A stretch of 64,000 nt of DNA from assembly GCA_021772775.1 (NCBI GenBank), contig JAJFLH010000004.1:1-64000 (forward strand). The letters run 5' to 3'. Positions 15,135 to 46,009 of the stretch are shown piece after piece. Origin of the DNA: Mariprofundus sp. (GTDB lineage: Bacteria; Pseudomonadota; Zetaproteobacteria; Mariprofundales; Mariprofundaceae). The notes beneath the pieces are model-generated. The model was not told where the DNA came from. It ran no database searches and worked only from the letters and a program-made list of their open reading frames with translations. The translations under genes and the position numbers were made by a program. Positions within the stretch are counted from its first letter, which is position 1. The number at the start of each line of letters is the position of its first letter.

Positions 15135-15941
15135 TTAATTGAACAGGCGTGAAAACAGGCCGCGTTTAGTCTGGGCTGCTTCTTTAGTTCGAATGAGAAT
15201 GATGGAGATATTGTCAGGACCACCTGCATCGTTGGCCATTTGAATGAGTTGTATTGCCGTTTTTTCGAGATTGTTTTTGTAGTCTATAAGTGTTTGACAG
15301 ATATCTTCATCTGAAACGACATCAGTCAAACCATCTGAGCACATCAGATACAGATCTCCGTCAACAGCGATATCCTCAACCAGATCGGCTTCTACATCAG
15401 GATCACTACCTAGAGCACGGGTAACCAGGTTTTTGATCATCGAGTGGCGAGCATCATCAGCGGTGACTAGGCCACGTTGAACCTGTTCGTGAATCAGCGA
15501 ATGATCTTCAGTGACATGGGTGAGCTTTTTGTTGCGTAACCGGTACATGCGTGAGTCACCGACATGAGCAGCGGTAATATGGTTGCCATAAAACAGTGCT
15601 GCTAACACTGTTGTCCCCATGCCTGCACATTCAGACCTTGTCTGTGCAGTATGGTATATGGCTTCATTAGAGGCTTTTATCGCTTGTCTGAGCAGCATGG
15701 ATTCGCCAGTGAAGCCTGTGTCTTTATCAATTTCAGCTTGAGGAATATCGAGAATTTTATTTTGGAGTGATGTGGTGATGATATCAACGGCCATTTCACT
15801 GGCTACTTCACCGGCGTTGTAGCCCCCCATGCCGTCGGCTAGTACCGCTATGCCATGAGAGGGGGTGACTTGAACACAATCTTCGTTGTGATCTCTTCTG
15901 ATGCCAACATCGGTCATGGCAAACATCTCTACTGTGGTCAC
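15135..15941 (-). CDS. PP2C-type Ser/Thr protein phosphatase
   Basis: Metal-dependent phosphatase expected to reverse phosphorylation by the kinase encoded upstream. Motifs: DVGIRRDHNEDC at the N-terminus, VLADGMGGYNAGEVAS (metal-binding Asp-Gly), HVGDSRMYRL, LVTRALGSDPDVEAD, LMCSDGLTDVV and GGPDNISIILI. The 268-aa length matches the short bacterial PppA/PstP class without a membrane anchor. It overlaps the kinase gene by 4 bp, so the two form a coupled operon. Confidence 0.93.
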   Translation of the reverse strand: MTTVEMFAMTDVGIRRDHNEDCVQVTPSHGIAVLADGMGGYNAGEVASEMAVDIITTSLQNKILDIPQAEIDKDTGFTGESMLLRQAIKASNEAIYHTAQTRSECAGMGTTVLAALFYGNHITAAHVGDSRMYRLRNKKLTHVTEDHSLIHEQVQRGLVTADDARHSMIKNLVTRALGSDPDVEADLVEDIAVDGDLYLMCSDGLTDVVSDEDICQTLIDYKNNLEKTAIQLIQMANDAGGPDNISIILIRTKEAAQTKRGLFSRLFN

Positions 15942-18331
15942 TGGCTTTCTCCGTTGCTATTTAGATCACGTAAACAAAGGGATACTTTTCCCAGTAGATC
16001 GTTGGCAGTGTTGATGCGCTGATCGGCTTGTTTGGTGAGTAATTCATCAATGAGAAGGCGAATACAATCAGGCACTTCAGTATTATGTTCGCGGATGTCG
16101 ACATGCGGTTGCTTAGCAATTTTATACATAAGCTTTGATAGAGATTCGGCCCTAAATGGGCGAATGCCACTGGTTAGCTCGTATAGCATGACACCGAGTG
16201 AAAATAGATCAGAGCGGCCATCTAGTTTTTTGCCAGATAGCTGTTCTGGTGACATATAAGATGGGGTGCCTAGCACAATGCCGGCTTTTGTTTTACTCGA
16301 ATCAATGATGTGGGCAATTCCAAAGTCAGTTACTTTTACGGTTTTATTTTTTAAAATCATAATATTAGCTGGTTTTATGTCGCGGTGTATTACGTCGTGT
16401 TCATGGGCATATTGTAGTGCTTCAGCAACTTTTCCGACGATCTTCAAAGTGGTGGAAAAGGGTAGCAATCGGCCTTTTCTGGTGTAAGGTGAAAGGTCTA
16501 TGCCATCAAGGAACTCCATAGCAATATAAGCCAGATTTTGTTCGTCACCGGCATCAAAGATAGTGACTATGTTTGGGTGATTGAGCATGCCGGCGATTTC
16601 AGCCTCATGAAAAAACTTGCTTTTCACCTCTTCGACTTCATCGGGTTCAAAGTCCTCTGACAGTGCCATGGTCTTGATTGCAACTTTGCGGTTTATTTTT
16701 GGATCTTTGCCCAGATAGACGGTGCCCATTGCGCCTTTGCCCAATTCGCTGATGATTTCATAGCGTCCAAGCGTACGCTTGTTTTCAGCAGGGATAAGAG
16801 TGGTGGATAATGTTGAGTTGTTGATATGTGAGCTTTCGCCTTCGCTTTTTGCACTGCTGATGCGTGCTTGAATGTTCGGATAGTTTGGTTTGTTTCTGGC
16901 GATATGCTCATACACTGCGGTGGCCAGCGTAAATTGTTGTTTGCGCTCTAAAGCAAGCGCTAGCTTGTCAAATGTAGATAACATATCGTCATTGACGGGG
17001 CAGGCCTGAAATTTTTCAAAAGCTTGTTCAAGCATGCCTTGGTTTTGAAACGAAATGCCCAGTTTTTTGTTGGTTTCATCCATGTTTTTGATGGATTTCT
17101 TTTTGCTTCCTTCACATATATAGGTTTGCTTACAGATTAAAAACAGATGGCCGATGAGCAGCAGTATGGCCGCAGTAATGGTTTGCAGCCATGTGGAATA
17201 ATATAAAAGTGCGAGAAAATCGACACTGATCAATGCGATGAATATCAGGCTGGAAAAGGCGATGCCCACACGAGTTGTGAATTGAGGTAGTGCATAGGCT
17301 AGGTAAAAGCCGATGATGAGTAATAAAACAAGTTCGATGCTATGGGTCCAGGCGGGGCGCTGAAATGCCTGGCTGTGAAGTATGTTTTGTAAGACATGAG
17401 CGCTGAACTCAATGCGAGTCATGGCGTGCTTGCCGGGGGTTTGAAATGTCTGATCGGGATAGGCTTCAATGAGAATGATTTTGTCTTCTAAAGCAGTAGC
17501 TGGAATTTTTCCTTCATATAGCTGATTGAACGAATAGGTTTGAAAGTACGTGTCATTCTCTGCTTGAGGGAGTGAAGGGTATAGGTGGGTTTGTCTGTCT
17601 GTGCCGATTGTTAACGATCCTAACTCAATCTCTTTTCCGGCATGAACTCGAATGTCATTTAGGGGAATATTTAATATTTTAGAGGCAAGTAACAGTGAGA
17701 ATGATGGGAGGTACTCATTGCCATAAGCTATTGTCAGTGCTTCAGACCTGACTATGTCGTCATGGTCTTTGAGGAAACTCATGTGGCCCAGGCCAGCAGC
17801 GACTTCTGTAAACTGTTGGTCGGGATGCGATGTAAGGGTGGCAATACTGCTTTGATGGGGCGAGCTTGTGTTGACGTGCTGTAGCGCCATGGGCTTTAGC
17901 TGTTTTGGCAATCTCGTGCCAGATTGCTGCATGCTTGTGTCGATATCGAAATATACGGGTAGCAGCGTATTACCACTTTTGTAAATGATGTCGACAAGAG
18001 CTCTGTCGGCAGGCGCTTGAGCTATCTCTTTGTTGTTACGGAACCTGCTATCAATTGCAATGAACGATGCATTAGCATCTGTAAGTTTTTCGACCGCTGA
18101 TGTGATCGCTTGCTTGGAGCTAAGGCCAGTTGAAGGGAGGGACTCTGGATTGATGTTGAGAATGATGATTTTTTTGTCACCAGTCTGTGAAGTGCTGGTT
18201 ACGGAGCTATCATAGACTATGTTTTCTATACTTTTTAGTAGGGTGAGTTCCTGTTGAAATGCAATGACAAATAGCAGGGTCAGCGCGGAGCCGATAAACC
18301 AGTCTGATTTCCAGATTGCATGAAGATTCAA
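15938..18331 (-). CDS. CHASE2-domain Ser/Thr protein kinase
   Basis: A 797-aa transmembrane eukaryotic-like kinase. One N-terminal membrane helix (about 11-30) precedes an extracytoplasmic CHASE2 sensor (about 35-325), three closely spaced helices (about 328-400) and a TPR-like linker (about 415-495). The kinase domain begins near 520 and shows GKGAMGTVYLG (P-loop), VAIKTM (Lys), HRDIKPANIM (catalytic loop), TDFGIAH (DFG) and GTPSYMSPEQL (activation segment), so it should be active. The partner PP2C phosphatase overlaps its end. The CHASE2 ligand is unknown. Substrates are not indicated by the context. Confidence 0.93.
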   Translation of the reverse strand: MNLHAIWKSDWFIGSALTLLFVIAFQQELTLLKSIENIVYDSSVTSTSQTGDKKIIILNINPESLPSTGLSSKQAITSAVEKLTDANASFIAIDSRFRNNKEIAQAPADRALVDIIYKSGNTLLPVYFDIDTSMQQSGTRLPKQLKPMALQHVNTSSPHQSSIATLTSHPDQQFTEVAAGLGHMSFLKDHDDIVRSEALTIAYGNEYLPSFSLLLASKILNIPLNDIRVHAGKEIELGSLTIGTDRQTHLYPSLPQAENDTYFQTYSFNQLYEGKIPATALEDKIILIEAYPDQTFQTPGKHAMTRIEFSAHVLQNILHSQAFQRPAWTHSIELVLLLIIGFYLAYALPQFTTRVGIAFSSLIFIALISVDFLALLYYSTWLQTITAAILLLIGHLFLICKQTYICEGSKKKSIKNMDETNKKLGISFQNQGMLEQAFEKFQACPVNDDMLSTFDKLALALERKQQFTLATAVYEHIARNKPNYPNIQARISSAKSEGESSHINNSTLSTTLIPAENKRTLGRYEIISELGKGAMGTVYLGKDPKINRKVAIKTMALSEDFEPDEVEEVKSKFFHEAEIAGMLNHPNIVTIFDAGDEQNLAYIAMEFLDGIDLSPYTRKGRLLPFSTTLKIVGKVAEALQYAHEHDVIHRDIKPANIMILKNKTVKVTDFGIAHIIDSSKTKAGIVLGTPSYMSPEQLSGKKLDGRSDLFSLGVMLYELTSGIRPFRAESLSKLMYKIAKQPHVDIREHNTEVPDCIRLLIDELLTKQADQRINTANDLLGKVSLCLRDLNSNGESQ

Positions 18332-19608: not shown

Positions 19609-19871
19609 TAGTGTAATTTCCTGGCTTGTAAAAGATGAATAAAGACATCCTTAATGTCATCTTTTGAAGAGCTTCTATTGCGCAACGTTAAAGTTGTCTG
19701 GATGGCGTGGATGGGCTCTCCAATAGTTCGTTTTTTTGTTGAAAAACAATGATATTACAACTCCTATGATGTGTTGTTTCCTTGATTAAATATTTGCAAA
19801 GTTTATGCTCCGGCTTATCTAAAAGTTTATTTTCAGTCGATGAAAAAACTGAGTTAATTGGGGTGGATGGC

Positions 19872-22325
19872 ATGGAGTCTTATGTTCTTGTGTTGAGGCG
19901 TGTGAAGCAGGTTTTGCTTTTGGTGAGTTTGTCTTTGATAGTCGGGATGACAGGTGTCCGTGCTGCTCATGCTGGTGTAGGTGATCGTCTGCAGGTTTCT
20001 GAGGCTGGCGCTGTATTGTATTCAAATCCATCGACCTCGGCTTCGAAGCTCATGAATGTGAATGCTGGCGCTAAAATGGTTGAGATGGTCAGACAAGGTT
20101 CGTGGGTGCTTGTGTCGTTAACCAGTACAGGGACGCAGGGCTGGATGAAGAAAACAGCAGTTCAAAAGGCTACGCGTGGAGCTGCTGCGCCGGTCAAGGC
20201 GATAAAAGAGGCTGTTCAAAAGGTTTCTAGTCTGCCTCCGATGGCGGATACTCCTGTCATGAGCCCTGCGGACTTGATAAGAGTTCCAGAGCCGTTATCT
20301 GGTTCTCCATATACAGCCAGAAGACTTTCCCTGAAAGATATTGGCTTGACCAAGGGGCTCTTGTTTGAGGGGGCGAATGGTGTCCATTCGCAAACATTTT
20401 ATTTTCCTGCTCCGCTTGACTCATTGATTACTCATGGCTCGTTTCGCCTGTTGTTTCGGAGTTCGCCAAATTTGTTGCCTTTAGCGAATGTTCGTGTCGC
20501 CATCAATGATGTGCCTTATAAGCAAATTAACCTGCCTGCAGATGGTGCAATGCATGCCTTGGATGTGCGTTTACCTGCTTCTGCCTTTGATGGTCATTTG
20601 GTGAAAGTGACAGTAGCAGCTATCTTGCCGGTGTCTGAGAATCGCTGTTTCGATGGCCGCTTGAGTGATATCTTTTTACATGTCTTTCCAGAAAGTACGA
20701 TGTCCATCTCCTATCAGGCGGTTGAAAAGTCGATTCGTGATGCATGGCGTATGTTGCCTCAGGAGGTGACGATCAGTCTTTCTGCGGGTCAGTTGGGCAA
20801 GGAACAGTTTGCTTCGGCCCTGGCTCTGATGGCGCTACTGGTGGATGATGGTAAGAAAGTGAAAATTGTGAGGCTGCCTGAGATTGGGGATATTATTGTT
20901 GCTCCCAGAGCATCTGTTGAGCCGCTTGTTGGTCAAGGCGTGTTGAAGGAAAGGCTGGATAAGGAGAGCAACTTAATGTTGGTTCACCTTTCGAACCGGT
21001 CTGCTATTGCACTATTGGATCCATTTGATGTTCAGCCGATGTATCTGTTGGATAATACGTGGAAAATGATTGCTGCTGCTGAACAATATCGCGTATTTAG
21101 GCCTGATAATATACATTCTCGTGTGGAGATGCTGGGTACCGAGGGTGATTCGGGTTACTTCTCCTTGCCTCTATCTAAGCTGGGTATGGATATTGGAACG
21201 AAAGCGTTAAGTCGAGAAGTAAACTGGCATACTGTCGTAAACCCATTTGCTTTGCCTATGGGGACTCAGCCTGAGCTGTTGCATCTTAATATTGTTGCCC
21301 CAGTTCGCTGGACAGATGACCCAACCTATGAGTTATATGTGTTTCTTAATGACATCTTGGTGAAGTCAGCCCGCTTGGATAACAGCGGCATGAAACAGCG
21401 TTTTACGATCAATCTTCCGGTTGAATATCAGAGACAGTTTAACGATATCCGAATCGTTGTTCAGCATGATATAGTGGAGGGGAACTGCGAAGGTACGATG
21501 CCATATGATTATATTCAGGTTACGCCGGACAGTGCTCTGATTGTCAAGTCTACTACAATAGATACGCCGAAAATATTTGCTGATTTAGCGAAGTACTTTT
21601 TGCCTGGCTTTGATACCTATATAGAAGATCTCTATTTGGATGAGCCTGAGCAGATCTTGCATTTAATGGCGCGTTTAGCAGCTGATTTCCCTCTGGTTAT
21701 TGATCATACGCGATTGCATTTCATGGATAGTACTGAATTGCTGCAGCCTGAGGGGCCGTTTGTAGCTGTAGGTCACTTTACACTTAGCGATGATATTAGT
21801 GCCCCGGTCCGTTTTGATAAGGGCCGGGTGAAAATTACGGCGCCAAATGGTGAGGCCTATTTTGATGTGGATCAGCTCTCAAAGGTGACGATCGCACAAA
21901 TTGCCAATGCAACTACGGCATATGGCTTGTGGATTGCGCCATCTGATTCAGAAGACCTTTCTAATATCGAGCGCCTGGAGCTGTCAGAAGATGACGTGGC
22001 ATTTATTGATCTGCATGGTGTAGCTAAAACCCTGGACTCATCTGAGCCGACATTGGCTGAAGTATATTATCCAGATGCTGAAGATTGGTTTGATGTGCTG
22101 GGTAAATACAAATTTTGGTTAATGGTATTGCTGTGGTTCTTGCTGACGATGGTTGTGGTTTATCTCTATCGCATGTCCAGAATGAATAAACTGGCGCGTG
22201 AAGAAGATGATGCCATGTATCAGGCCGATGAAAACCGCATGCAGGGTGAACAGGCCGCGCATATGCATGAAGATCATACGATTCATCCGGGCGGAGAGCT
22301 GGATCACCTTGATGAGAAGCGGTAA
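19872..22325 (+). CDS. BcsB-like periplasmic exopolysaccharide synthase subunit with SH3 domain (sfz1-like)
   Basis: An ~817-aa membrane-anchored periplasmic protein. A signal peptide (to about AHA|GVG) is followed by a bacterial SH3-like domain (about 30-95) and then a long BcsB-like region: 'LLFEGANGVHSQTFYFPAP', 'SFRLLFRSSPNLLPLANVRVAINDVP' and a later repeat 'LLHLNIVAPVRWTDDPTYELYVFLND'. It ends with a single C-terminal helix (KFWLMVLLWFLLTMVVVYLY) and a charged cytosolic tail. BcsB guides the nascent glucan through the periplasm next to the synthase. Here the partner would be the GT2 gene 8 bp downstream. The N-terminal SH3 is not part of classical BcsB. ATG 19872 gives the cleanest signal peptide; an upstream TTG at 19782 is possible. 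Correspondence to 'sfz1' is my inference from the published six-gene description. Confidence 0.82.
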   Translation: MESYVLVLRRVKQVLLLVSLSLIVGMTGVRAAHAGVGDRLQVSEAGAVLYSNPSTSASKLMNVNAGAKMVEMVRQGSWVLVSLTSTGTQGWMKKTAVQKATRGAAAPVKAIKEAVQKVSSLPPMADTPVMSPADLIRVPEPLSGSPYTARRLSLKDIGLTKGLLFEGANGVHSQTFYFPAPLDSLITHGSFRLLFRSSPNLLPLANVRVAINDVPYKQINLPADGAMHALDVRLPASAFDGHLVKVTVAAILPVSENRCFDGRLSDIFLHVFPESTMSISYQAVEKSIRDAWRMLPQEVTISLSAGQLGKEQFASALALMALLVDDGKKVKIVRLPEIGDIIVAPRASVEPLVGQGVLKERLDKESNLMLVHLSNRSAIALLDPFDVQPMYLLDNTWKMIAAAEQYRVFRPDNIHSRVEMLGTEGDSGYFSLPLSKLGMDIGTKALSREVNWHTVVNPFALPMGTQPELLHLNIVAPVRWTDDPTYELYVFLNDILVKSARLDNSGMKQRFTINLPVEYQRQFNDIRIVVQHDIVEGNCEGTMPYDYIQVTPDSALIVKSTTIDTPKIFADLAKYFLPGFDTYIEDLYLDEPEQILHLMARLAADFPLVIDHTRLHFMDSTELLQPEGPFVAVGHFTLSDDISAPVRFDKGRVKITAPNGEAYFDVDQLSKVTIAQIANATTAYGLWIAPSDSEDLSNIERLELSEDDVAFIDLHGVAKTLDSSEPTLAEVYYPDAEDWFDVLGKYKFWLMVLLWFLLTMVVVYLYRMSRMNKLAREEDDAMYQADENRMQGEQAAHMHEDHTIHPGGELDHLDEKR

Positions 22326-22333
22326 TTGCTGTT

Positions 22334-24394
22334 ATGAGCAAAACGCAAGGAGCGGTTAAGGGAAAAATTGGTGAAATGCTGCTGAATGCTGGGCTCATTA
22401 CTCAGCAGCAGCTCGATGAGGCGCTGGCCCAGCAGAGTAGTCAGGGAGGGCGTCTAGGCGACATTATTCTGAGCAAGGGCTGGATGAAAACAACTGAGTT
22501 TTATTCAGTATTGTCTGATCACTTTCGGCGCGGGCGTATTGGTGACTTGCTGCTATCACAAGACTTAATCACCGAAGAGCAGATGGCTGAGGTGCTTGAT
22601 CTTCAGCATATGTGGGGTGACCGTATCGGTGATATCATTCTCTCCAAAGGGTGGCTGTCATCATTTCAGATGGCGGAAGCGCTGGCAGAGCACTTTGATA
22701 AACCGATTGTGAACCTGCTCAAAGATAAGCCGAATTCAAAAATATTGAATCGTGATGATCTCTCCACCTACTCTGAAAATCTTTTTGTCCCTTGGAAACG
22801 TGAAAACGGCCTGTTGAAGGTTGCTCTTGTTGATGTGAATCCAGAGCTTCTTGAGTTAGTGGATAGCGTTGTCAAAGAGCCTTTTGATTTTGTTCTTACT
22901 GCCAAATTTGATGTGATTTGGTATTTGCAAGAGGTTGGCAATATGTTTTACAGTGAAAAAGCTGTGCATGAGTTGGCCAATGTTCAGCCGGAATACTCTG
23001 CGAGTGAGGTTGTTACACCAAAACAGCTGCGCTTTTTGTTTGTCGTTATGACCATAGGCATGGTGTTTTTTGGCTTCTGGCCTGTAACTACTTTTATTGT
23101 GATTATTTTGGCGATTTCAGCATTTTTGATGGTGAATTTTGTGTTACGAATGGTTCTGACTTGGGTTGGGGGGGATCCGCAATTTGATAATACGGTAACA
23201 GATGAAGAGGTGGCAGCGCTGGATGATAAAGACCTGCCGGTATATACGATCATGCTACCGATGTATCATGAAGCATCGACCCTGCCTGCTATCGCTCAGG
23301 CTCTGCGCCAGATCGATTACCCACTCTCTAAACTCGATATTAAGCTTATCCTCGAACAGGATGATGATGAGACGATTGATTGCGCTAAAGAGCTGGGGTT
23401 GGAAGCTATCTTTGAAATCCTGCGTGTGCCGGACTGTTTGCCCAAGACCAAGCCTAAAGCTTGTAACTATGCTATGCACTTCAGTCGTGGTGAATTTGCA
23501 ACAATTTATGATGGAGAGGACGCCCCCGAGGTTGATCAGCTGAAGAAGGCCTTTGTTGCTTTTACGAAAGGCGGAAGAAAAATCGCCGTGATTCAGGCGC
23601 GTTTAAACTATTTTAATGGTAAGGAGAACTGGTTAACGCGTATGTTTACCATGGAGTACTCCTTATGGTTTGACTTTTATCTACCTGCATTGGATGCCTT
23701 GAATATTCCAATTCCTCTTGGTGGGACATCCAATCACTTCCGGATGGATGTGTTGCGTGAGATGGATGGTTGGGATCCCTACAATGTAACAGAGGATTGT
23801 GACCTCGGTGTGCGTTTGGTGCAGTCGGGTTACCGTGTAGGGGTGCTAAACTCCACAACCTATGAAGAAGCCAATAACTCCATTCCAAACTGGATCAGGC
23901 AGCGCTCACGCTGGCTGAAAGGTTATATGCAGTCCTATCTGGTGCACATGCGCACTCCCATTGTTTTTTATCATAAACTTGGGGCTGTTGGCTTCTGGGG
24001 TTTTCAGTTCTTTATTGGTGGAACAATTTTTAGTGCCCTATCGATGCCAATTATGGCGGCGTTTTATATCGTTTGGTTGCTTACACAGACGGCCCTTTTT
24101 GATCCATTTTTCCCTTCAGTCGTACTTTATGTGACACTGTTTAATCTTTCGATCGCCAATGGATTCCTTATTTATCTGTTTATGCTCAGTGGTTTTAAGC
24201 GTAAATATTTTGATCTGATCCCATGGGCGATTACGGTGCCATTCTACTGGATACTGCAGTCATGGGCCTGTTATAAAGGACTGTGGCAGCTGGTGAATAA
24301 TCCCTTTTATTGGGAAAAGACCCATCATGGTCTTACTACATTTGAAGTGGATCATGAGACCGGTGAGGTGTCGGATACTGGTGGGGCGCATTAA
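22334..24394 (+). CDS. c-di-GMP-responsive GT2 polysaccharide synthase with N-terminal MshEN repeats (sfz2-like)
   Basis: A 686-aa inner-membrane processive glycosyltransferase candidate. Residues about 9-120 hold four tandem MshEN-type motifs of the form (R/K)(L/I)G..L...G......L, starting KIGEMLLNAG, RLGDIILSKG, RIGDLLLSQD and RIGDIILSKG. Motifs of this class bind c-di-GMP in pairs. Helices near 233-278 precede the catalytic domain with DGED (393-396), TED (487-488 Glu-Asp) and QRSRW (523-527), the D,D,D,QxxRW signature of cellulose/hyaluronan-type synthases. Several C-terminal helices follow (about 550-660). There is no PilZ domain, unlike BcsA. The domain set resembles E. coli NfrB, but there the MshEN region is C-terminal as I recall. 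The stop codon overlaps the next start. Confidence 0.9.
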   Translation: MSKTQGAVKGKIGEMLLNAGLITQQQLDEALAQQSSQGGRLGDIILSKGWMKTTEFYSVLSDHFRRGRIGDLLLSQDLITEEQMAEVLDLQHMWGDRIGDIILSKGWLSSFQMAEALAEHFDKPIVNLLKDKPNSKILNRDDLSTYSENLFVPWKRENGLLKVALVDVNPELLELVDSVVKEPFDFVLTAKFDVIWYLQEVGNMFYSEKAVHELANVQPEYSASEVVTPKQLRFLFVVMTIGMVFFGFWPVTTFIVIILAISAFLMVNFVLRMVLTWVGGDPQFDNTVTDEEVAALDDKDLPVYTIMLPMYHEASTLPAIAQALRQIDYPLSKLDIKLILEQDDDETIDCAKELGLEAIFEILRVPDCLPKTKPKACNYAMHFSRGEFATIYDGEDAPEVDQLKKAFVAFTKGGRKIAVIQARLNYFNGKENWLTRMFTMEYSLWFDFYLPALDALNIPIPLGGTSNHFRMDVLREMDGWDPYNVTEDCDLGVRLVQSGYRVGVLNSTTYEEANNSIPNWIRQRSRWLKGYMQSYLVHMRTPIVFYHKLGAVGFWGFQFFIGGTIFSALSMPIMAAFYIVWLLTQTALFDPFFPSVVLYVTLFNLSIANGFLIYLFMLSGFKRKYFDLIPWAITVPFYWILQSWACYKGLWQLVNNPFYWEKTHHGLTTFEVDHETGEVSDTGGAH

Positions 24395-25929
24395 TGTCTG
24401 AAGTGAACCTGGCAACACGCCTGCACAAAGAGGATTGGGACTTTTCTCATCATCAGGGCACTTGGCTACTGGTTATACTTACAATGTTGATGATCGGTCT
24501 GGCGATCTGGGTATTATCGAACGGTTTTTTTCTGGAAAGTGCGCTGCAAAGTTGGGCTATTGTGATTTCGGCACTGGGCTCCGATGAAGTGTTGCTTGAA
24601 AATCTGACCATGTTAACACCGCACTTTCCACTGTATCTGCTGATCCCGTTTTATTACATCCCTGGTTTGGATACAGGTGCCGCACCCTATCTGGTCTCCA
24701 TCCTGGCAACGACTACACTGTTATGGTTATGGGCCAGGAACTTACGAGACGTGGATATTACCCAGATGAGGTTGGCGATTGTTGCGTTGCTGATCGTGCT
24801 ACATCCGGCTTTTTTATGGGCAGCAACCTCGGGTGGACATATCTCACTCACCATGATTACATTTTATCTGCTGTATCGTGCGGCGCAGCATATTATTTCG
24901 GATCATGACATTCACTCTTATATTTCGATGGCTGTTGTCTTTGTTGTTTTCTTCTTTATTGATGGTACGGCTATTTATATTTTTGTGGCTTTGATCCCAT
25001 TGATTGTTTTGATCGCTCCAATTCGGGCTATCATGGTGTCACCTTTGAGTCTGTATCTGATTGTGGGTACCCCCTTTGCGTTTGCAATTGGTACATGGGG
25101 TTATATGAACTGGATTTTTGAAGGCAGTTTCTTGTTTTTTATCACCGACTCGGAATCTACCTTTTTGGGCGGCATGCTTGCTATTGATCAATACCCCTGG
25201 TTGCAGAACAATGGAGGTCAATTTTTTAAGCCGTTCCTGATTGCAACGGGTTATTTGTTGATCGCTTACCCGGTATCTATTTATTTGCTCCTGGATACCG
25301 TGGATGATAACCATCGCTTTCGGGCCACATTTGTATTGATGTTGCACCCATTGATTGCGATTGCGCTGGCGACAAGTCAGAACTATCTCACTCATCCATT
25401 TGAAATTTTAGCTCTTGTGAGTGCGGGTTTGATGGCCGAATTGACCTATGTGAAAATGCAAACACAACGTGAGTTCGTGCTGTTGGCTGTTTTTTTGCTG
25501 GTGAGTATTGTGGGTGGCTGGTGGCTGTTTATTGAAACAGCAAGTCCTCCGATGCTGCGTTGGGTGAACGCTATACAAGGTGTGGATACAACGACCCCTG
25601 TGGCCAAAGATGGTGACTATCAATTGGGCAGATGGTTAAATGCCAATCGTCTACCCACCATCATCCATGAACGCAGTGCTTATCGTGTGATTGCAGCCAG
25701 AGGCGATTCAGAGGGGCTCTTGTTGTCCTATTCGCATGGCTTTAAGTCGGCCATGCGTCGACGCATTCCCACAACAGAACAGATTGCTGTTTCTAAACCA
25801 GATACGCTGATGGGTAGACGGGATCTTATGAATATTCGCCATCCGCATCTCTATTCTCATGGTTTGGAAGGTTATAAACGGGTTTATGATAAGTTGGGAT
25901 GGCGTGTTTATCGGCGGAAAGATGCATAA
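24394..25929 (+). CDS. Polytopic membrane protein of the exopolysaccharide cluster (sfz3-like)
   Basis: I do not recognise a named family. The 511-aa protein has about ten hydrophobic helices between residues 25 and 385, a layout reminiscent of GT-C (ArnT/PMT-like) membrane glycosyltransferases. An early extracytoplasmic loop 'LENLTMLTPHFPLYLL' could carry the acidic site, but no diagnostic Asp motif is clear. A C-terminal soluble domain of ~115 residues follows, likely periplasmic. The gene overlaps its upstream neighbour by 1 bp (TAATG) and the downstream lipoprotein by 8 bp, so it is a fixed part of the operon. It might transfer a modifying sugar or form part of the export path. Confidence 0.75.
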   Translation: MSEVNLATRLHKEDWDFSHHQGTWLLVILTMLMIGLAIWVLSNGFFLESALQSWAIVISALGSDEVLLENLTMLTPHFPLYLLIPFYYIPGLDTGAAPYLVSILATTTLLWLWARNLRDVDITQMRLAIVALLIVLHPAFLWAATSGGHISLTMITFYLLYRAAQHIISDHDIHSYISMAVVFVVFFFIDGTAIYIFVALIPLIVLIAPIRAIMVSPLSLYLIVGTPFAFAIGTWGYMNWIFEGSFLFFITDSESTFLGGMLAIDQYPWLQNNGGQFFKPFLIATGYLLIAYPVSIYLLLDTVDDNHRFRATFVLMLHPLIAIALATSQNYLTHPFEILALVSAGLMAELTYVKMQTQREFVLLAVFLLVSIVGGWWLFIETASPPMLRWVNAIQGVDTTTPVAKDGDYQLGRWLNANRLPTIIHERSAYRVIAARGDSEGLLLSYSHGFKSAMRRRIPTTEQIAVSKPDTLMGRRDLMNIRHPHLYSHGLEGYKRVYDKLGWRVYRRKDA

Positions 25930-26929
25930 ATTTACTATTATTTTGTTTGTGATATCCATGACTGCTTTGATGTCAGGCTGTGCGACGGTGGGCGAGTTGA
26001 AAAATCAATCCATGTTGCGAGGCTTTAATGTGATGCAGCATGAGAATATGGGGTGGACTGAGCCTGAGGCCAGGCGTTCAATCAAGCGCATGGTTCGGCT
26101 TGGCACGAATGCGGCCGTACTCATTAGTTTTCTCGAGCAGGATTCGTTTTCATCACTGAAAGTGAGACACTCTGATGCTGTAACCTTTGAGCAGTTAAAG
26201 AGTGCGATACAATATGCCCATGAATTTGATCTTGAGATCATTCTGAAGCCGCAAATTCTAGTGCATAATGCTTGGGCAAGTGCGATTTCTCATAAGCGGC
26301 AGCGCGATTGGAATCTATGGTTTGAAAGCTATTCAAAACATATTGTGGAATATGCTGAGTTTGCCGCCAGACATAAGGTACAGACTTTTGTTATTGGTAC
26401 GGAGTTATCCAAGGCTTCAGGACATGTTGATTGGCCAAAGTTAATTCGTAAAGTGCGCGCTGTTTTTCCAGGCAAGATTACCTATGCAGCGCATAATGTT
26501 GAAGGCATGCAGGCATTTCAATATTGGCAAGAGCTGGATGCTGTCTCTTTGACACTGTACCCAAGATTAGGGAAGACAGGTCACTATAATGAAATTCAGT
26601 CGTATGTTCAGCAAGAAGTGAGTAAATTACAGCGTGCAGCGCAGTCGATCGATTTGCCTCTCTGGGTTTTAGAGATCGGCATGCCTTCTGCTTATGGAGC
26701 ATCTGCCAAACCGTGGGAGTGGCAGAGTTTAAAACACGCACGCGTTGACCTGAAGGTTCAGCAAGATGCGATTGATGTTTGGTTAAGAGCGTTGGATCAA
26801 TCGTGGGTGGATGGTGTCTTTATCTGGGCTTGGTATAGTGATGTCGCATCTGGTGGGGCAAATGATACGGATTACACACCTCAGAACAAACCAACGGAAA
26901 AGATTATTCGACGTTATTGGAAATTCTAG
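25922..26929 (+). CDS. GH113-like lipoprotein glycoside hydrolase (sfz4-like)
   Basis: A 335-aa lipoprotein. The start ATG 25922 gives MHKFTIILFVISMTALMSGC, with lipobox LMSGC; longer readings lose the signal. The mature part reads as a TIM-barrel hydrolase: 'RGFNVMQHENMGW' at the first strand, 'LGTNAAVLISF', 'DLEIILKPQI', 'FVIGTELSK' with Glu161 as likely acid/base, 'AHNVEGMQAFQYWQELDAVSLTLYP', 'WVLEIGMPS' with Glu251 as likely nucleophile, and 'VFIWAWYSD'. This pattern fits GH113, whose known members are beta-mannanases. A periplasmic or outer-membrane glycan-trimming role like that of BcsZ in cellulose operons is inferred. It overlaps its upstream neighbour by 8 bp. Confidence 0.8.
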   Translation: MHKFTIILFVISMTALMSGCATVGELKNQSMLRGFNVMQHENMGWTEPEARRSIKRMVRLGTNAAVLISFLEQDSFSSLKVRHSDAVTFEQLKSAIQYAHEFDLEIILKPQILVHNAWASAISHKRQRDWNLWFESYSKHIVEYAEFAARHKVQTFVIGTELSKASGHVDWPKLIRKVRAVFPGKITYAAHNVEGMQAFQYWQELDAVSLTLYPRLGKTGHYNEIQSYVQQEVSKLQRAAQSIDLPLWVLEIGMPSAYGASAKPWEWQSLKHARVDLKVQQDAIDVWLRALDQSWVDGVFIWAWYSDVASGGANDTDYTPQNKPTEKIIRRYWKF

Positions 26930-26938
26930 AGGATGAAT

Positions 26939-27874
26939 ATGAGCAAAGTTACTTTACTTCAGTTATGGCGGCGTCTGGCTGCAACTTTAGTGTTGCTTGC
27001 AGGTTTCATCATTGCGCCTTCAGCCTATGCTGGAGTTGGTATGCTTGGTGGCGGAGAATCACTCTATAACTCCGATCTGGGGATTTCAGGTGGTAATACC
27101 ATTTGGGACGGAACTCGCCAGAGAAACCTGTCGGCCTGTAAACGCCGGAATGCCAATTTAATTCAAGGTTATGAGTATGGTTACTCCTATTTTTACACCC
27201 TTTTTGCCAGTGCAACGATCGCTTATCGTAAATGTGGTGAGATTACTCGCTCCAAGCGTGTTAATCGTGTAACGGGTAATATAACGCCTGCTCAGTCCAC
27301 CCTTGGTGGCAGGTCTCAAGGTCTCGGAGATGTGAGTATCGGCATGAGGGCTCGTTTGAATCATGCAAATACAGCGGCTTGGGAAGTCTCTATGATTATT
27401 CCTACCGGCTATGATGGTAACAGTCCTGCAAGTTTGGGACGCGGAGCTTTGGGGATGTCGCTTGGCATAAAATTCGCGTCTGATGGGAAAGTAAATAAAA
27501 AGAGTTCATGGGCCTGGAATTTAGGCTCAAAATTCAACTTTTTCTTTGCCAGTAAGGGGAACTCTATTGCTTCTTTTGTATCGCTTAGTTATGCCTTTAC
27601 TGAAACAAACTTTGAACAGACTGGTAACTTTTTATCGTTACGCATTAGCAATAGTGTTGCTCTGGCCAGAAATGGAGTGCAGCAGCAACTGTTCTATAAC
27701 CAGGTACCATCGAGTTTAACCAGCAGTGATATTACTGCGCTTACCTTGGGTTATAGCCATGCTTTTCCAGATGGCTGGTCAACGAATCTCCGAGTAGGCA
27801 AGGGGCTCTTTGGTCGAAGCTCTCCCATTGATTATAATGCTGGCTGGGGGGTCAGTTACCGTTGGGAAGATTAA
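26939..27874 (+). CDS. Small outer-membrane beta-barrel protein of the exopolysaccharide cluster (sfz5-like)
   Basis: The ~311-aa product has a signal peptide (hydrophobic to 'IIAPSAYA|GVG') and a mature part with alternating strands such as 'AAWEVSMIIPTGYDG', 'GMSLGIKFASDG', 'IASFVSLSYAFTETNF' and 'NFLSLRISNSVAL'. It ends in an aromatic strand (WGVSYRWED), though not a classical terminal Phe. It looks like a transporter-type outer-membrane barrel (MetA-pathway/'transporter' OMP class) and could be the glycan exit pore, since no BcsC or PgaA homologue is present. ATG 26939 is preferred to ATG 26933 for its AGAGGA ribosome-binding site. Two cysteines (in SACKRR and YRKCGE) may form a disulfide. 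The stop lies 13 bp inside the next gene. Confidence 0.72.
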   Translation: MSKVTLLQLWRRLAATLVLLAGFIIAPSAYAGVGMLGGGESLYNSDLGISGGNTIWDGTRQRNLSACKRRNANLIQGYEYGYSYFYTLFASATIAYRKCGEITRSKRVNRVTGNITPAQSTLGGRSQGLGDVSIGMRARLNHANTAAWEVSMIIPTGYDGNSPASLGRGALGMSLGIKFASDGKVNKKSSWAWNLGSKFNFFFASKGNSIASFVSLSYAFTETNFEQTGNFLSLRISNSVALARNGVQQQLFYNQVPSSLTSSDITALTLGYSHAFPDGWSTNLRVGKGLFGRSSPIDYNAGWGVSYRWED

Positions 27875-30800
27875 ATAATAAGTGGTATCGCTTAGGGGGG
27901 AAGCTGCTTGCATTGTTAGGTTTAGCAATGGCTACTGCTCCAGCATATGCTGCCGAAGGTGATATCTATACTCTGCAGAAAGACTCTAGCCTGCGGCAGG
28001 GCCCGGATAGTTATTATGCTCCAACGAGCAGTGCTAGAAAAGGTGGGCAGGCTATTGAATTGAATAGTTCGGGTGAATGGAAGAAAGTCCGTATATTTGT
28101 TAGCGGTGATGTCGGCTGGGTTTATGCAAATTATCTAGTGCCTGTTGCAGTTGATCCGAAGCAAACTAAAGTCGCTCAGGCCTTCCCTGCTACCACTAAT
28201 GTGAAGGAAAATAGCCTAGATAAGTCAGCTCGGGCGGGAGAAGCAGCTGTTGCGTTAACTGAGTTCGCAAGCCTTCGCTCCGATGCTGTTGTGAAACAGC
28301 CTGAGACATTGGCCGTTCAGGTAGAGCCTGTGGTGCAGAGCATGGCTCCATCGAAAGAGAGTGTAGAGGGAGATTCCGTACCTCCACTGTTTGAGGATGG
28401 AGCGGTATCTCAGGAACCCGTAGAAGTAGAACAATTTAATAATAAGCTAGCCAGCAACTTTTTGGGCAGTAGCAAACCCGCAGCTATCGAGACGAATACA
28501 ATTCAACAGCCTTTAAAGGGAGCAAAGGGCAATGCGACTGGATTTGAACAGTTCCCTGTAGAGTTTTCGACGAGTCAAGCAGGACAGAATAAAGAAGCCC
28601 AAAAGACAATAGAAAAATCGCCAGCTGTAAGTCGTACGACCGATAAATCGCATGCCGTTGGTGTGAAACAATTTTCTGTTCAATTTGCGCAGAGCCCTTC
28701 AGCTGAGGCCGTTTCGCAGTCACCAACAGCAGCAACGAAGCCGAAGTCAATCCCTGCTGATATGAAGAGCAGACCAACGCCAGCTGTAGAGATGACAGCT
28801 TATCCAGTTAAAGCGAAAGAGGTTGCGGAAGATGTGAAACCTGCCGCTGCAGTTGTGATTGATAATAACGAAAGTGGCAATGTCTTAACATCTCAACCAT
28901 TAAGTGATGGTTCACAGCTCGTGAAACAAACTTCAGTGATCAGGGTTGGCCCCAGTGCTTTATCCGAAGTGTTGGGTTGGGCCGGAACAGGTGCAGAGGT
29001 TCAAACTATTCATCAACAGGGTAAATGGATGAAGGTCCGCTTGTTGGATAGTGGCAGAATAGGTTGGGTTGAATCGACCTCACTTGATCTAAGTGGTGCG
29101 ACTACCAGCGTACCGCTGGTGAGGAAGCAGCAGAACACTCCAATAGAGAAAAAACAGCCACAATTAGAAGTGGTAAATATTCTGACTAAACAAGCTCCGA
29201 CGCGACGCAGTGAAGATGTCGGGGGGCTTGAGGATACAGCTGAGCCTGTGACAAAGCGGCCTGCCATATCAAATGAGACAATAACGCCACAGTGGGAAGT
29301 GAAAAATGTAGTGGCAACACCGAAAAAGGCACTAGATAAGCTGGAAAGCAAACCTGATGTTGTAGCTGCTGCAATGATAAAACAGGAAAATCAACCGATT
29401 GAAACGGCGGCATTGCAGGCGGAAGTAACAAATATAGTGGCGGAACCAAAAAAGGCGTTAGAGAAGCTAGAGGGCAAATCTGCGGTTGTAATTGAGCCAG
29501 AAAACAAACCGATTGAGACGGCGCAATTACAACCGGAAGTGAAAAATGTAGTGGCAAAACCAGTAACGGAACTAGATAAACTGGTGAGCCAGCCTGCGGC
29601 TACTGTTGCACTGGTTGAAACGGCAAAACAGCAAAATAGTTTATTGGAGCAAGCGGCGTCACAGACACAAGCAGCAACGGCCATAGCTAAACAATCTCCA
29701 AGTCTGGAGACGGTTATACTTGCACCTGATGCGACGATGGCTAGTGAGAGTCAGTCTGTCCAGAATAATGCGGTTGAATCGGAAAGCGCTGAAAAAGGTT
29801 TGTATAAATTCAATAGAAAAGCCAAGTTGAGATCTGGCCCGAATGTTAGTTTCGATACAGTTTCCTGGGCTGGTGAAGGTTCGAAAGCGACAGAACTTGA
29901 TCGCAATGGTGACTGGGTTCGTATTCAGATGCAGGTCAGTAAGCGCATTGGCTGGGTATATGACCGCTCATTGGATATTGTCAGCCTTGGTGTCTCTGCA
30001 GCAGGGGCAAGCGTAGCTGCTGCAGGAGTAGCTTCTACTCCAATGGTGATGCCTATTAAGATCGGGGGGCCATTTACTCAAGAGTCAGTAGCACTGTCGG
30101 AAGAAACGAAGGCAGAAGCTGATCAAGTGGAGGCACTGGCGGAAATCGCTCAAGTCGAAGCAAAGGTAGAAACTGATCAGGCTGTCGTGGGTAATGCAAC
30201 GGTTTCTACAGCAAGAAATCTGTACCGTTTTAATGAAAAAACGAATTTGCGAGAAGGCGCTGGTGAGCAGTATGACGTTGTTTCATGGGCGGGCCATGAA
30301 GCTTATGCAACTGAGTTGGCGAGAAAAGATGATTGGGTGCAAGTCCAGCTGCAGGCTGGTAAACGCATTGGTTGGGTTCTTCATAGTTCTATGGCGCTGG
30401 TGAACACAGCTGTGAACAGTTCGGCTGAGGGGAGCAAAAGTGCTGAGTCGGAGCTTAAAAAACTAGCCGAGGAGGCAGGGCCTAAACTATATTTCTTTAA
30501 ACGCACAAGTAATTTACGAAAAGGGCCCGGCAAGGAGTATGATCGTATAGCATGGGGCGGTAGAAATGAGGCTGCTGAAGAGATCGAGCGGCAGGGTGAT
30601 TGGCAACATGTTCGCATGACGTTGAATGGGCAAGTTGGTTGGGTGTTCAACGAATATATGCAACGTGCAGTACATCCAGGACACCTTATGGGAGCACCAG
30701 CTCTGCCTGTTGCTGCCGAACCAGTACAACAAGTGGTTGAGAAGCTAGAGCCTGAGAAGCCCGAGCTTGAGGAAGCTAAAGCTGAGGAAGTAGCCGAGGA

Positions 30801-33039
30801 TACAGGCTCTAAACTGTATTTCTTTAAACGCACAAGTAATTTGCGAGCAGGCCCGAGCAAAGATCATGCCCGCATAGCTTGGGGTGGAAGAAACGAAGCG
30901 GCTGAGGAGATCGAGCGAAAGGGTGACTGGCAACATGTTCGTATGAGTTTGAATGGACAAGTTGGTTGGGTCTTTAATGAGTATCTGGTGCGTGCTGTGC
31001 ATCCGGGACATCTCATGGGAGTGCCAGATTTGGTCCTTTCAACACCTGCCAAGAAGGCACAGCAACAAAAGTCAGGGCAGATGTATGAGGTTATGCGGAC
31101 AGAGCCGCTACGGGCTGATGCAGGTGATTTTTCTGAATTAATTGGTTCAGTGCAAAAAGGCGATATTGTGGCATGGCTGGAAGGGCGCAATGGCTGGGCA
31201 CGCGTGAATCCTCAGATTGATGGGAGCAAGGTCGGTTGGATTCAGACGAGCCTTTTGAAGCAAAAGAAACAGGCTAAAGTTGAGCAAACACAGGCGGTGA
31301 TCAGTAATACAAATATCATGGAGTATGCGGATAGAATCTCAAAAGGTGAGACTTTTAATTTCTCATATGCGGCTCTTGAAGAAGCTCTATACAGGGTACC
31401 TGTTGAGGAAATTCATATTCGTCTTCGAAAAACCGATATGGATGCGATTTTCTTAAAGCGCCAGTTCGATCAGTCATCTTTTGATATTCGCTTGACAGCG
31501 GGACGACATAGACTCAAGGGAACCCTGAAGGTGTTGGGTAGTTCGACGCGTATCTTTAAGAAGAAATCGATTATGATTAAATTGGATAAGCAGAGTGCGC
31601 GCTGGTACGGGCACCGAAGGCTGGCATTGCGATCAATGGCATCAGATAAAGCTTTGATGCGAGAGTGGATGGCATGGAAAATGATGGCTGCATTGGGTAT
31701 GAAAGTACCTGAAGTACACTTCACCCGGGTAACCTTCAATAAAGGTGAAAAAACCGCGCTCTATCTATCGGTTGAATGGATGGGCCGAGAGTTCTTGGAG
31801 GGTAATAATTTAGATACACGCGGTGAATTTTATCAGCCGAACGATGGAGCTCATTGTGGTGATTTGTATACTCCGGATACGATGGAGTTGTGCTTTGATA
31901 AGATTACGCCACAGGATGGGGATTACTCTAGCCTTATGGCGATGGCCAAGGCTGTGAATGAAGCAACGAATGAAAATATAGATCAGACTCTGGCTAAATA
32001 TTTTGAGGATGAATCGATTATTAACTGGATCGCTGTCAATGGGCTGGTTACCAATGGTGATACCTACAACAAAAACTATTGGCTCTATTACCATCCCACA
32101 GAAAAGAAATGGACGGTTGTTCCCTGGGATTATAATCTGACCTATGGTCGTACATACGATCAATATTCCACTAAAGCATTTCGAATTTTTAATGATAATT
32201 TCCAGTATTATTATCCGCCAGATGTGGGGGCAGGTAATCCGGTTAAGGATAAGGCATTACGAAACCCTAAACTTCGAACCCGGCTGGAAAATAAAATTAA
32301 ACATTTGATTGGCATGGAGCCTAATGGCTCGGAGCGAACCTTTGGCTGGTTCTCACCAACGGTGATGGAGGCGCGTATTGGAAACCTTGCATCGGTAGTT
32401 GGCAAAGAGGTTTATAAAGACACATTCCTCTCATATGGCGAGGCTGACTTTACCAAGACATATGAATCATTGATACATTATGTCACGGCTCATGATCACT
32501 TCCTTAAGGTGAAGCTATTTGGTGATTTTCCGTGGGAACCGGAGCCACCGAATATGCCATTTATGTTTATGCCAATGCCAGAAGTTTTAACTGGAGAGGG
32601 GCAGATTGATGCTGGTGCTGAATCATTGCATCTGGTTGATCGTGGTTGGGGCTATTTTGTGGGGCGTTTGAATTTGACGGAGCCTTTAAAATCGAAGGTG
32701 GATTTCAAAGTACAAATTGAAGGCGGCATTAAACCAAAATATATACCGGCTTCTCAATCATGGATGCGGTGCATTGAACGATCATGGCTGCTGAGTACGA
32801 AAACAGAGAATGTTTCCGTATCAGGTGATTTTATGGTTGAATATGTTCAGGAAAACTCACGACGTTCTGAGGTTCCACCACAAGTTCATGAAGAGTTGTT
32901 GGAGTTGTGGATGCTGGATGGCAATCGCTGGAAGCCTCTGCAGACAGAAGTGAATGAATACTCCAATACATTGACGGCGAAAAATATAGATGTGAAATCA
33001 GGGCATACATATCGATTTGTAGCTTGTAGTCCATTCTAA
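27862..33039 (+). CDS. Giant secreted multi-SH3 protein with CotH-kinase-like domain (sfz6-like)
   Basis: A 1725-aa exported protein. A signal peptide (to about AYA|AEG, residue 31) is followed by seven bacterial SH3-like domains, near 33-94, 345-410, 645-705, 785-845, 874-935, 980-1040 and 1070-1135, separated by long low-complexity spacers rich in Ala, Glu, Lys, Pro and Val (95-345 and 410-640). From about 1184 to 1560 comes a CotH-kinase-like domain: 'ALRSMASDKALMREWMAWKMM', 'TNGDTYNKNYWLYYHP' near 1394 and 'VVPWDYNLTYG' near 1420, the Asp/Asn and WDxN metal-site pattern of CotH. The C-terminal ~160 residues have a beta-rich look. CotH proteins phosphorylate extracellular proteins in spore formers. 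SH3 domains usually bind cell wall. The start is TTG 27862, within the upstream gene; no ATG alternative keeps the signal peptide. Confidence 0.85.
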   Translation: MGRLNNKWYRLGGKLLALLGLAMATAPAYAAEGDIYTLQKDSSLRQGPDSYYAPTSSARKGGQAIELNSSGEWKKVRIFVSGDVGWVYANYLVPVAVDPKQTKVAQAFPATTNVKENSLDKSARAGEAAVALTEFASLRSDAVVKQPETLAVQVEPVVQSMAPSKESVEGDSVPPLFEDGAVSQEPVEVEQFNNKLASNFLGSSKPAAIETNTIQQPLKGAKGNATGFEQFPVEFSTSQAGQNKEAQKTIEKSPAVSRTTDKSHAVGVKQFSVQFAQSPSAEAVSQSPTAATKPKSIPADMKSRPTPAVEMTAYPVKAKEVAEDVKPAAAVVIDNNESGNVLTSQPLSDGSQLVKQTSVIRVGPSALSEVLGWAGTGAEVQTIHQQGKWMKVRLLDSGRIGWVESTSLDLSGATTSVPLVRKQQNTPIEKKQPQLEVVNILTKQAPTRRSEDVGGLEDTAEPVTKRPAISNETITPQWEVKNVVATPKKALDKLESKPDVVAAAMIKQENQPIETAALQAEVTNIVAEPKKALEKLEGKSAVVIEPENKPIETAQLQPEVKNVVAKPVTELDKLVSQPAATVALVETAKQQNSLLEQAASQTQAATAIAKQSPSLETVILAPDATMASESQSVQNNAVESESAEKGLYKFNRKAKLRSGPNVSFDTVSWAGEGSKATELDRNGDWVRIQMQVSKRIGWVYDRSLDIVSLGVSAAGASVAAAGVASTPMVMPIKIGGPFTQESVALSEETKAEADQVEALAEIAQVEAKVETDQAVVGNATVSTARNLYRFNEKTNLREGAGEQYDVVSWAGHEAYATELARKDDWVQVQLQAGKRIGWVLHSSMALVNTAVNSSAEGSKSAESELKKLAEEAGPKLYFFKRTSNLRKGPGKEYDRIAWGGRNEAAEEIERQGDWQHVRMTLNGQVGWVFNEYMQRAVHPGHLMGAPALPVAAEPVQQVVEKLEPEKPELEEAKAEEVAEDTGSKLYFFKRTSNLRAGPSKDHARIAWGGRNEAAEEIERKGDWQHVRMSLNGQVGWVFNEYLVRAVHPGHLMGVPDLVLSTPAKKAQQQKSGQMYEVMRTEPLRADAGDFSELIGSVQKGDIVAWLEGRNGWARVNPQIDGSKVGWIQTSLLKQKKQAKVEQTQAVISNTNIMEYADRISKGETFNFSYAALEEALYRVPVEEIHIRLRKTDMDAIFLKRQFDQSSFDIRLTAGRHRLKGTLKVLGSSTRIFKKKSIMIKLDKQSARWYGHRRLALRSMASDKALMREWMAWKMMAALGMKVPEVHFTRVTFNKGEKTALYLSVEWMGREFLEGNNLDTRGEFYQPNDGAHCGDLYTPDTMELCFDKITPQDGDYSSLMAMAKAVNEATNENIDQTLAKYFEDESIINWIAVNGLVTNGDTYNKNYWLYYHPTEKKWTVVPWDYNLTYGRTYDQYSTKAFRIFNDNFQYYYPPDVGAGNPVKDKALRNPKLRTRLENKIKHLIGMEPNGSERTFGWFSPTVMEARIGNLASVVGKEVYKDTFLSYGEADFTKTYESLIHYVTAHDHFLKVKLFGDFPWEPEPPNMPFMFMPMPEVLTGEGQIDAGAESLHLVDRGWGYFVGRLNLTEPLKSKVDFKVQIEGGIKPKYIPASQSWMRCIERSWLLSTKTENVSVSGDFMVEYVQENSRRSEVPPQVHEELLELWMLDGNRWKPLQTEVNEYSNTLTAKNIDVKSGHTYRFVACSPF
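30480..31030 (+). repeat. Intragenic tandem SH3 duplication
   Basis: SH3 domains five and six of the giant protein are a recent duplication at DNA level: about 30487-30705 and 30814-31032 align with long exact stretches such as TTTCTTTAAACGCACAAGTAA in both copies and the shared protein end 'AVHPGHLMG'. The spacer between them is Glu/Lys/Pro-rich. This implies slippage- or recombination-driven change in repeat number. Confidence 0.8.
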
Positions 33040-45154: not shown

Positions 45155-46009
45155 GTGAACAGGCTCATTAATACGGAGCAGTATGCGCAACTCTGTTTTG
45201 CGCAGCAGGCGCGTGAATGTGAAGAGAAGAAAAATGCGTGGTTGAAGCTAGCTGCGTTGGCTGTGGCTGGACTTATTCATGTCGTCATATTGATACAATT
45301 TGGTAATGATTTAAAACCCGCTGCGGCGAAACCGCAGCGGGTCTCACTGTTGGAAGTTGAATTGGTGGCGACAGCTGTTGCCAGCGAAATGCCGAAAAAA
45401 ATAGTACAGGAGCCCATTTCTCCAAAAGTGGAGCCAGTACCAGAGCCTCTGCCAGAACCACTGCCTGAGCCAGAGAAAGCAGAACCAGAATCGCTTCCAC
45501 AGTTAAAGAAACCCGAGCCAGAAGTGGTAAAAAAGCGACCTGCAAAAAAAATAAAAAGCAAACGCCATAAAGTGGTTCAGCCAAAAGCCGTGGCTGTAAA
45601 AAAGGAAATAATCGACACCAAGCCTGTAGAGCCACGTCCACCTCTCCACAGGCCAATTGCCCTGACGCAAGTTGTTCAAGCCGCCACTGATACTCAGACA
45701 ATGGCAGATAAAGAGCGACGTATAAAGCTGCGTCAGCAATACCTTGTCCGCATCATGGCGCTGGTTGAGGCACATAAAAGCTATCCATTGTCGGCGCGTC
45801 GGCGGCATATTGAGGGTGAAATCCAGCTCTCGTTTCAGGTGAATGCAGAGGGGTATGTCAGTGATATTCAAATCACAGGAAAATCATCTGTTCTACGCCG
45901 TGCCAGTATGGATGCTCTACAAAATTCCCTGCCTTTGCCACCACCACCGAAAGAGATATTGGAAGCAAGTCATTCACGTTTCATCATGCAATATCAGCTT
46001 GAACGTTGA
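45155..46009 (+). CDS. tonB: TonB-family energy transducer
   Basis: A 284-aa protein with one N-terminal membrane anchor (about 31-48), a long periplasmic Pro/Glu then Pro/Lys-rich spacer (about 90-160; 'PEPLPEPLPEPEKAEPE' and similar) and a C-terminal TonB domain (about 205-280) with 'YPLSARRRHIEGEIQLSFQVNAEGYVSDIQI'. The usual YP and SS/GG elements fit. It transmits proton-motive energy to receptors such as its upstream neighbour. ExbB and ExbD are not in this window. The start is GTG 45155, with no strong ribosome site, so coupling to the receptor gene is plausible. It converges on, and overlaps by 16 bp, the NMT1-GGDEF-EAL gene. Confidence 0.88.
   Translation: MNRLINTEQYAQLCFAQQARECEEKKNAWLKLAALAVAGLIHVVILIQFGNDLKPAAAKPQRVSLLEVELVATAVASEMPKKIVQEPISPKVEPVPEPLPEPLPEPEKAEPESLPQLKKPEPEVVKKRPAKKIKSKRHKVVQPKAVAVKKEIIDTKPVEPRPPLHRPIALTQVVQAATDTQTMADKERRIKLRQQYLVRIMALVEAHKSYPLSARRRHIEGEIQLSFQVNAEGYVSDIQITGKSSVLRRASMDALQNSLPLPPPPKEILEASHSRFIMQYQLER

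Follow-up and report, generated by a model that had tools for sequence, protein, structure and literature searches.

Twisted stalks are biosignatures of iron-oxidising bacteria. The genes sfz1–sfz6 have been proposed as the Zetaproteobacterial cluster for twisted-stalk formation (Koeksoy et al., 2021; PMC8250860), and in that work the N-terminus of Sfz2 was read as an EpsE-like domain of a type II secretion system (T2SS), a role in translocation was discussed, and two c-di-GMP motifs were listed for the protein, RxxD at residues 97–100 and RxxxR at residues 522–526. MshEN is not named in the stalk-cluster papers (PMC8250860; PMC4643136), nor is it mentioned in the accessible parts of later work in which sfz serves as a marker, and no sfz2 mutant was found reported in the stalk-cluster literature. 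The stalk role of the cluster is a genomic correlation, and its polymer, with the place of that polymer in stalks, is at the stage of a proposal.

Three described systems are close to Sfz2. Specifically, these are; 1) NfrB of E. coli, a c-di-GMP-activated fusion of a family 2 glycosyltransferase (GT2) with MshEN that binds c-di-GMP with a Kd of about 1 uM and works with NfrA (PMC8669469); 2) BcsA, which is gated by a C-terminal PilZ domain and is paired with BcsB; and, 3) Thermus PilF, with three GSPII domains, and other multi-MshEN ATPases, which carry tandem GSPII/MshEN domains in one chain. The c-di-GMP site of MshE has a 24-5-24 layout (PMC5013675). Here we compare these systems with Sfz2 of a Mariprofundus sp. 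and propose that its N-terminus is a doubled c-di-GMP sensor.

The DNA analysed, referred to as the window, is a stretch of 64,000 nucleotides from an iron-oxidising marine Mariprofundus sp., and the nearest named genomes are also Mariprofundus. The open reading frame at 22334–24394, on the forward strand like the rest of the cluster, encodes a protein of 686 amino acids. Judged by profile matches and synteny it is sfz2 of the published stalk-formation cluster, the same gene as Sfz2/Sfb2 of the sfz/sfb cluster (PMC8250860) and as the xagB-like CDS10 (Kato, 2015; PMC4643136), with the sfz1–6 order and the flanks as described there. The product is 79% identical to its homolog in Mariprofundus sp. 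EBB-1, where sfz1–6 are also syntenic, and the gene order from sfz1 to sfz6 (19782–33039) is identical in L006 and L007, the latter being EBB-1. Directly upstream lies sfz1 (19782–22325, start codon uncertain), encoding a BcsB-like periplasmic subunit (PF03170, 1.9e-18), and downstream follow sfz3 (24394–25929), assigned by synteny, which encodes a protein with multiple membrane spans; sfz4 (25859–26929, true start probably further in), a glycoside hydrolase of family GH113; sfz5 (26933–27874), placed by synteny and matching no known family in the profile search; and sfz6 (27862–33039), with SH3 repeats (PF08239, seven stretches) and a CotH kinase domain (PF08757). The match of Sfz4 to GH113 (PF22612, 5.3e-45) differs from the GH10 of the published annotation. 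The published flanking genes, an amidase, an ABC exporter, DUF374, an ADP/ATP carrier and a phosphomannose isomerase-type ManC, are also present.

Just upstream of the sfz genes, on the opposite strand, a CHASE2-Ser/Thr kinase and PP2C phosphatase pair (15135–18331) is retained in L006 and L007. The window also encodes a Cache-PAS-GGDEF protein (337–2358) and an NMT1-PAS-GGDEF-EAL protein (45994–49554), each a possible source or sink of c-di-GMP. Because the genome holds 26 GGDEF matches, it very probably makes c-di-GMP.

The earlier note on this DNA had placed four tandem MshEN motifs at about residues 9–120, probably forming two domains, and four motifs are indeed present there. The motifs are each 24 residues long and are separated by spacers of 5, 4 and 5 residues: motif 1 at residues 11–34 (KIGEMLLNAGLITQQQLDEALAQQ; 22364–22435), motif 2 at 40–63 (RLGDIILSKGWMKTTEFYSVLSDH; 22451–22522), motif 3 at 68–91 (RIGDLLLSQDLITEEQMAEVLDLQ; 22535–22606) and motif 4 at 97–120 (RIGDIILSKGWLSSFQMAEALAEH; 22622–22693). 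From the spacers, motif 1 belongs with motif 2 and motif 3 with motif 4, so that the 24-5-24 layout occurs twice, in module 1 (residues 11–63; 22364–22522) and in module 2 (residues 68–120; 22535–22693). A pairing of motifs 2 and 3 was also considered and is ruled out by the spacers, by the alternation of Gln and His described below and by the single-module relatives, which align in register with motifs 3+4. Both modules match NF053729, the NCBIfam model for the MshE-related c-di-GMP motif, in a whole-genome search, module 1 at 65.5 bits (E 1.2e-17) and module 2 at 58.7 bits (E 1.6e-15), and on this profile evidence a chance origin of the four motifs is excluded; NfrB, a proven binder, scores alike at 66.4 bits. 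An MshEN_C half (residues 122–201; 22697–22936), matched by PF05157 and having an alpha/beta fold in the model, follows the motifs and was not part of the earlier note, so the sensor domain extends to about 22936.

Modelling agrees with this assignment. A model of residues 1–209 (mean pLDDT 87.6, pTM 0.82) contains two groups of four helices each, followed by the alpha/beta half, and superimposes on MshE with bound c-di-GMP (5htl_A) with a TM-score of 0.83 by target length and an rmsd of 2.4, which bears out the comparison with the MshE N-domain that the earlier note had suggested. All 18 solved matches at E values up to 0.001 are MshEN or GSPII domains; they include PilF GSPIIB with c-di-GMP, and the model matches PilF GSPIIA as well. 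Thus, from sequence and predicted fold together, the reading of the N-terminus of Sfz2 as a c-di-GMP receptor is well supported.

Behind the sensor region the domain order is completed by membrane helices, GT2 and further membrane helices. The putative N-terminal helices (residues 229–277; 23018–23164) lie in a low-confidence region of the model that holds a hydropathy peak at residues 253–271, and the N-terminus ahead of them is expected to be cytoplasmic. The GT2 region (residues 304–583; 23243–24082; PF13641 at 304–529 and PF13632 at 390–583) contains TED at 486–488 (23789–23797) and QxxRW at 523–527 (23900–23914), and these, together with DxD, are invariant among 19 homologs, in keeping with the earlier description of MshEN motifs ahead of a processive-type GT2. 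BcsA structures are the best fold matches of the GT2 part; these come from a full-length model (19 alignment rows, pLDDT 61 overall) that is poor in the GT2 and membrane parts and was used for a rough match only. Sfz2 falls far under the cut-offs of the cellulose synthase models. It shares the BcsB-like partner with BcsA but, as the earlier note had supposed, matches no PilZ domain in the profile search. With NfrB it shares the fusion of GT2 and MshEN: the MshEN parts align (NfrB 469–673 with Sfz2 49–244, E 2e-9), whereas the likeness between the GT domains is weak (E 8e-4). NfrB has a single module at its C-terminus, with motifs at residues 489 and 517 of 745 (PMC8669469), the position given in the earlier note, whereas Sfz2 has two at its N-terminus and the BcsB-like Sfz1 in place of NfrA. 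PilF and the other multi-MshEN proteins are pilus ATPases, whereas Sfz2 is a glycosyltransferase.

The residues expected to contact c-di-GMP are largely in place. The Arg site is occupied by K11, R40, R68 and R97, and a Lys at the first Arg site is also found in PilF GSPIIB; position 2 is Ile or Leu, position 3 is Gly, position 17 is Leu, Phe or Met and position 21 is Leu. Across 19 homologs the position-3 Gly of all four motifs, Leu 27, 31 and 60, Q34, Q91 and R97 are invariant. The alignment of Arg, Leu and Gln contacts proposed in the earlier note therefore holds for Arg/Lys, Leu and Gly, but Gln stands at position 24 in motifs 1 and 3 only. Motifs 2 and 4 have His there, a feature that the earlier note did not record (17 of 19 homologs in motif 2, with one Gln and one Ser, and 19 of 19 in motif 4), so that one half of each module carries Gln. 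His is not among the position-24 residues of the relaxed MshEN motif of Wang et al. (PMC5013675). However, the change need not abolish binding, because NfrB binds c-di-GMP with Gln in one half only (its first motif has Arg at position 24 and Pro at the Arg site), and the PilF GSPIIB mutants Q190E and Q218E are described in their PDB entry titles as c-di-GMP-bound. In the alignment of the 19 homologs no part of the sensor region is as well conserved as the contact columns: mean column entropy over residues 11–120 is 0.46 for contacts, 0.69 for core hydrophobic positions and 1.15 for all non-contact positions. None of 20000 random position sets of equal size reached as low an entropy as the contact columns, although this permutation ignores fold constraints and relatedness, and comparison with the core hydrophobic columns is fairer.

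Sfz2 was found in 19 of 23 Mariprofundus genomes searched, one of the 19 being cut at a contig end, and in none of 14 other genomes of the family. Two genomes, G019 and G020, carry two copies each, one about 72% and the other about 62% identical to that of the window, and the identity of the second copies resembles that of the copies in probable dread-former genomes. Elsewhere in the order one of four genomes (L040, from another family) has Sfz2, with three modules and six motifs. In a betaproteobacterial order the MshEN-GT2 fusion occurs in 2 of 399 genomes, both from one family, probably Gallionellaceae, in which 7 of 150 genomes have it, with one module each except for one genome with two. 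One-module versions, often beside BcsB, occur in Ferriphaselus-like, alphaproteobacterial and Geobacillus genomes; two modules are found in Mariprofundus and one Gallionella-like genome, and three in the zetaproteobacterium L040. A Hyphomicrobiales plasmid carries a one-module version with homologs of Sfz1, Sfz3 and Sfz4, and in Geobacillus stearothermophilus plasmid pEF60063-1 (L109) BcsB, a one-module MshEN-GT2 with both Gln and a GT39-annotated protein stand in a row, the last in the position of sfz3.

These searches, at the level of phylum, order, family and plasmid, reject the idea that the N-terminal fusion is unique to Mariprofundus. Of the different gating arrangement that the earlier note had envisaged, the opposite order to NfrB and the lack of PilZ stand, but the arrangement recurs in Gallionellaceae-like, alphaproteobacterial and Geobacillus genomes. 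As far as these genomes reveal, the fusion is widespread, and what stands out is the repetition of the module. Tandem modules are present in two genomes that are probably those of the dread-formers M. aestuarium CP-5 (G012) and M. ferrinatatus CP-8 (G008) and are therefore not specific to stalks. When a tree is built from the GT2 part only, sequences whose modules were scored as intact group together (support 96, by a quick method). Beyond that group, related synthases in the phylum often retain PF05157 in place with the contact residues usually lost, and alphaproteobacteria often have a decayed MshEN. The group does not strictly take in every intact module, since two further sequences pass NF053729: L070, which lies outside it and was missed by the motif rule, with a single module at 42.5 bits, and L080 at 41.3 bits.

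Other MshEN-like proteins were noted in passing. A GspE/PilB-type ATPase of 816 amino acids (L112:2047–4497; G000:C28, minus strand) has about six MshEN-like half-motifs before its ATPase domain, and the genus has further ORFs of 800–820 amino acids that match similarly. A protein of 124 amino acids (L113:942–1316; G000:C29, minus strand) consists almost only of MshEN-like motifs and has no effector domain.

That the N-terminus is an EpsE-like motor piece helping polymer translocation was put forward, with doubt, in PMC8250860, and IPR007831 does also cover the N-domains of secretion ATPases. However, profile and motif searches find neither the T2SS ATPase domain PF00437 nor a Walker A motif in Sfz2, where the N-domain alone is present, and an EpsE-like ATPase is refuted on sequence; we regard this reading as highly improbable. 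The c-di-GMP motifs published with it also take on another meaning here, as residues 97–100 are RIGD, the start of MshEN motif 4, and residues 522–526 are RQRSR, overlapping the catalytic QxxRW. RxxD and RxxxR are short, chance-prone motifs and weak assignments: in Sfz1, where hydropathy suggests membrane spans at about residues 35–62 and 778–796, three of four RxxD and both RxxxR matches would fall within the part expected to be periplasmic.

An MshEN domain in Sfz2 is not by itself proof of sensing, because related alphaproteobacteria-like synthases keep the domain in place with the motif lost. The modules might then be a scaffold for docking or folding, for example for a partner protein, with which the His at position 24 of two motifs and the PilB N-domain bound to a PilZ protein (PDB 7lko) would agree. 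Yet relatives with decayed domains have lost the contact glycines, whereas in Sfz2 the contact columns are conserved beyond both core hydrophobic and other non-contact positions, and we consider a scaffold without c-di-GMP sensing unlikely. Within the sensor reading itself it is conceivable, though we do not favour it, that only the membrane-proximal module (3+4) senses and that the outer one is spare or a spacer; the lone module of one-module relatives lines up in register with module 2, and module number varies from one to three among synthases with the synthase retained. Against this, NF053729 is matched better by module 1, which also keeps its invariant Gly, Leu and Gln contacts. The protein may have two c-di-GMP sites, as the earlier note had suggested.

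We therefore return to the sensor reading and hypothesise that Sfz2 is a c-di-GMP-gated exopolysaccharide synthase and a mirror image of NfrB. By analogy, and from sequence and model, we think this likely, with binding, occupancy of two sites and activation all being what we infer. Sfz2 would be the synthase of the exopolysaccharide proposed as the organic matrix of twisted stalks. Rising c-di-GMP would bind one or both MshEN modules, and the loaded sensor head would repack against the GT2 domain, releasing it for polymer synthesis; chain synthesis and extrusion towards Sfz1 would then start, and Sfz1 would guide the chain across the periplasm. The N-terminal MshEN would thus play the role of the C-terminal PilZ in BcsA and of the C-terminal MshEN in NfrB. 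More speculatively, stacked modules may give two-site gating (three-site in one relative) with a steeper response or a threshold above that of the single-site NfrB, and iron-oxidiser lineages may have tuned the number of modules as part of their switch to the building of stalks or dreads.

This analysis corrects and sharpens the way in which the candidate stalk synthase has been described, in that its N-terminus is read as a doubled c-di-GMP sensor and not as a piece resembling a secretion ATPase. A plausible c-di-GMP receptor within the synthase replaces the weak RxxD and RxxxR assignments, and it makes c-di-GMP control of stalk making directly testable with a soluble domain of 204 residues. 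The pairing of BcsB with an N-terminal MshEN-GT2 is a widespread type of synthase beside BcsA and NfrB, and the occurrence of one, two or three sensor modules on one enzyme family provides a natural series for asking what repeated MshEN does. For the iron oxidisers themselves, the sensor reading offers an explanation, open to test, of how c-di-GMP may switch stalk making on.
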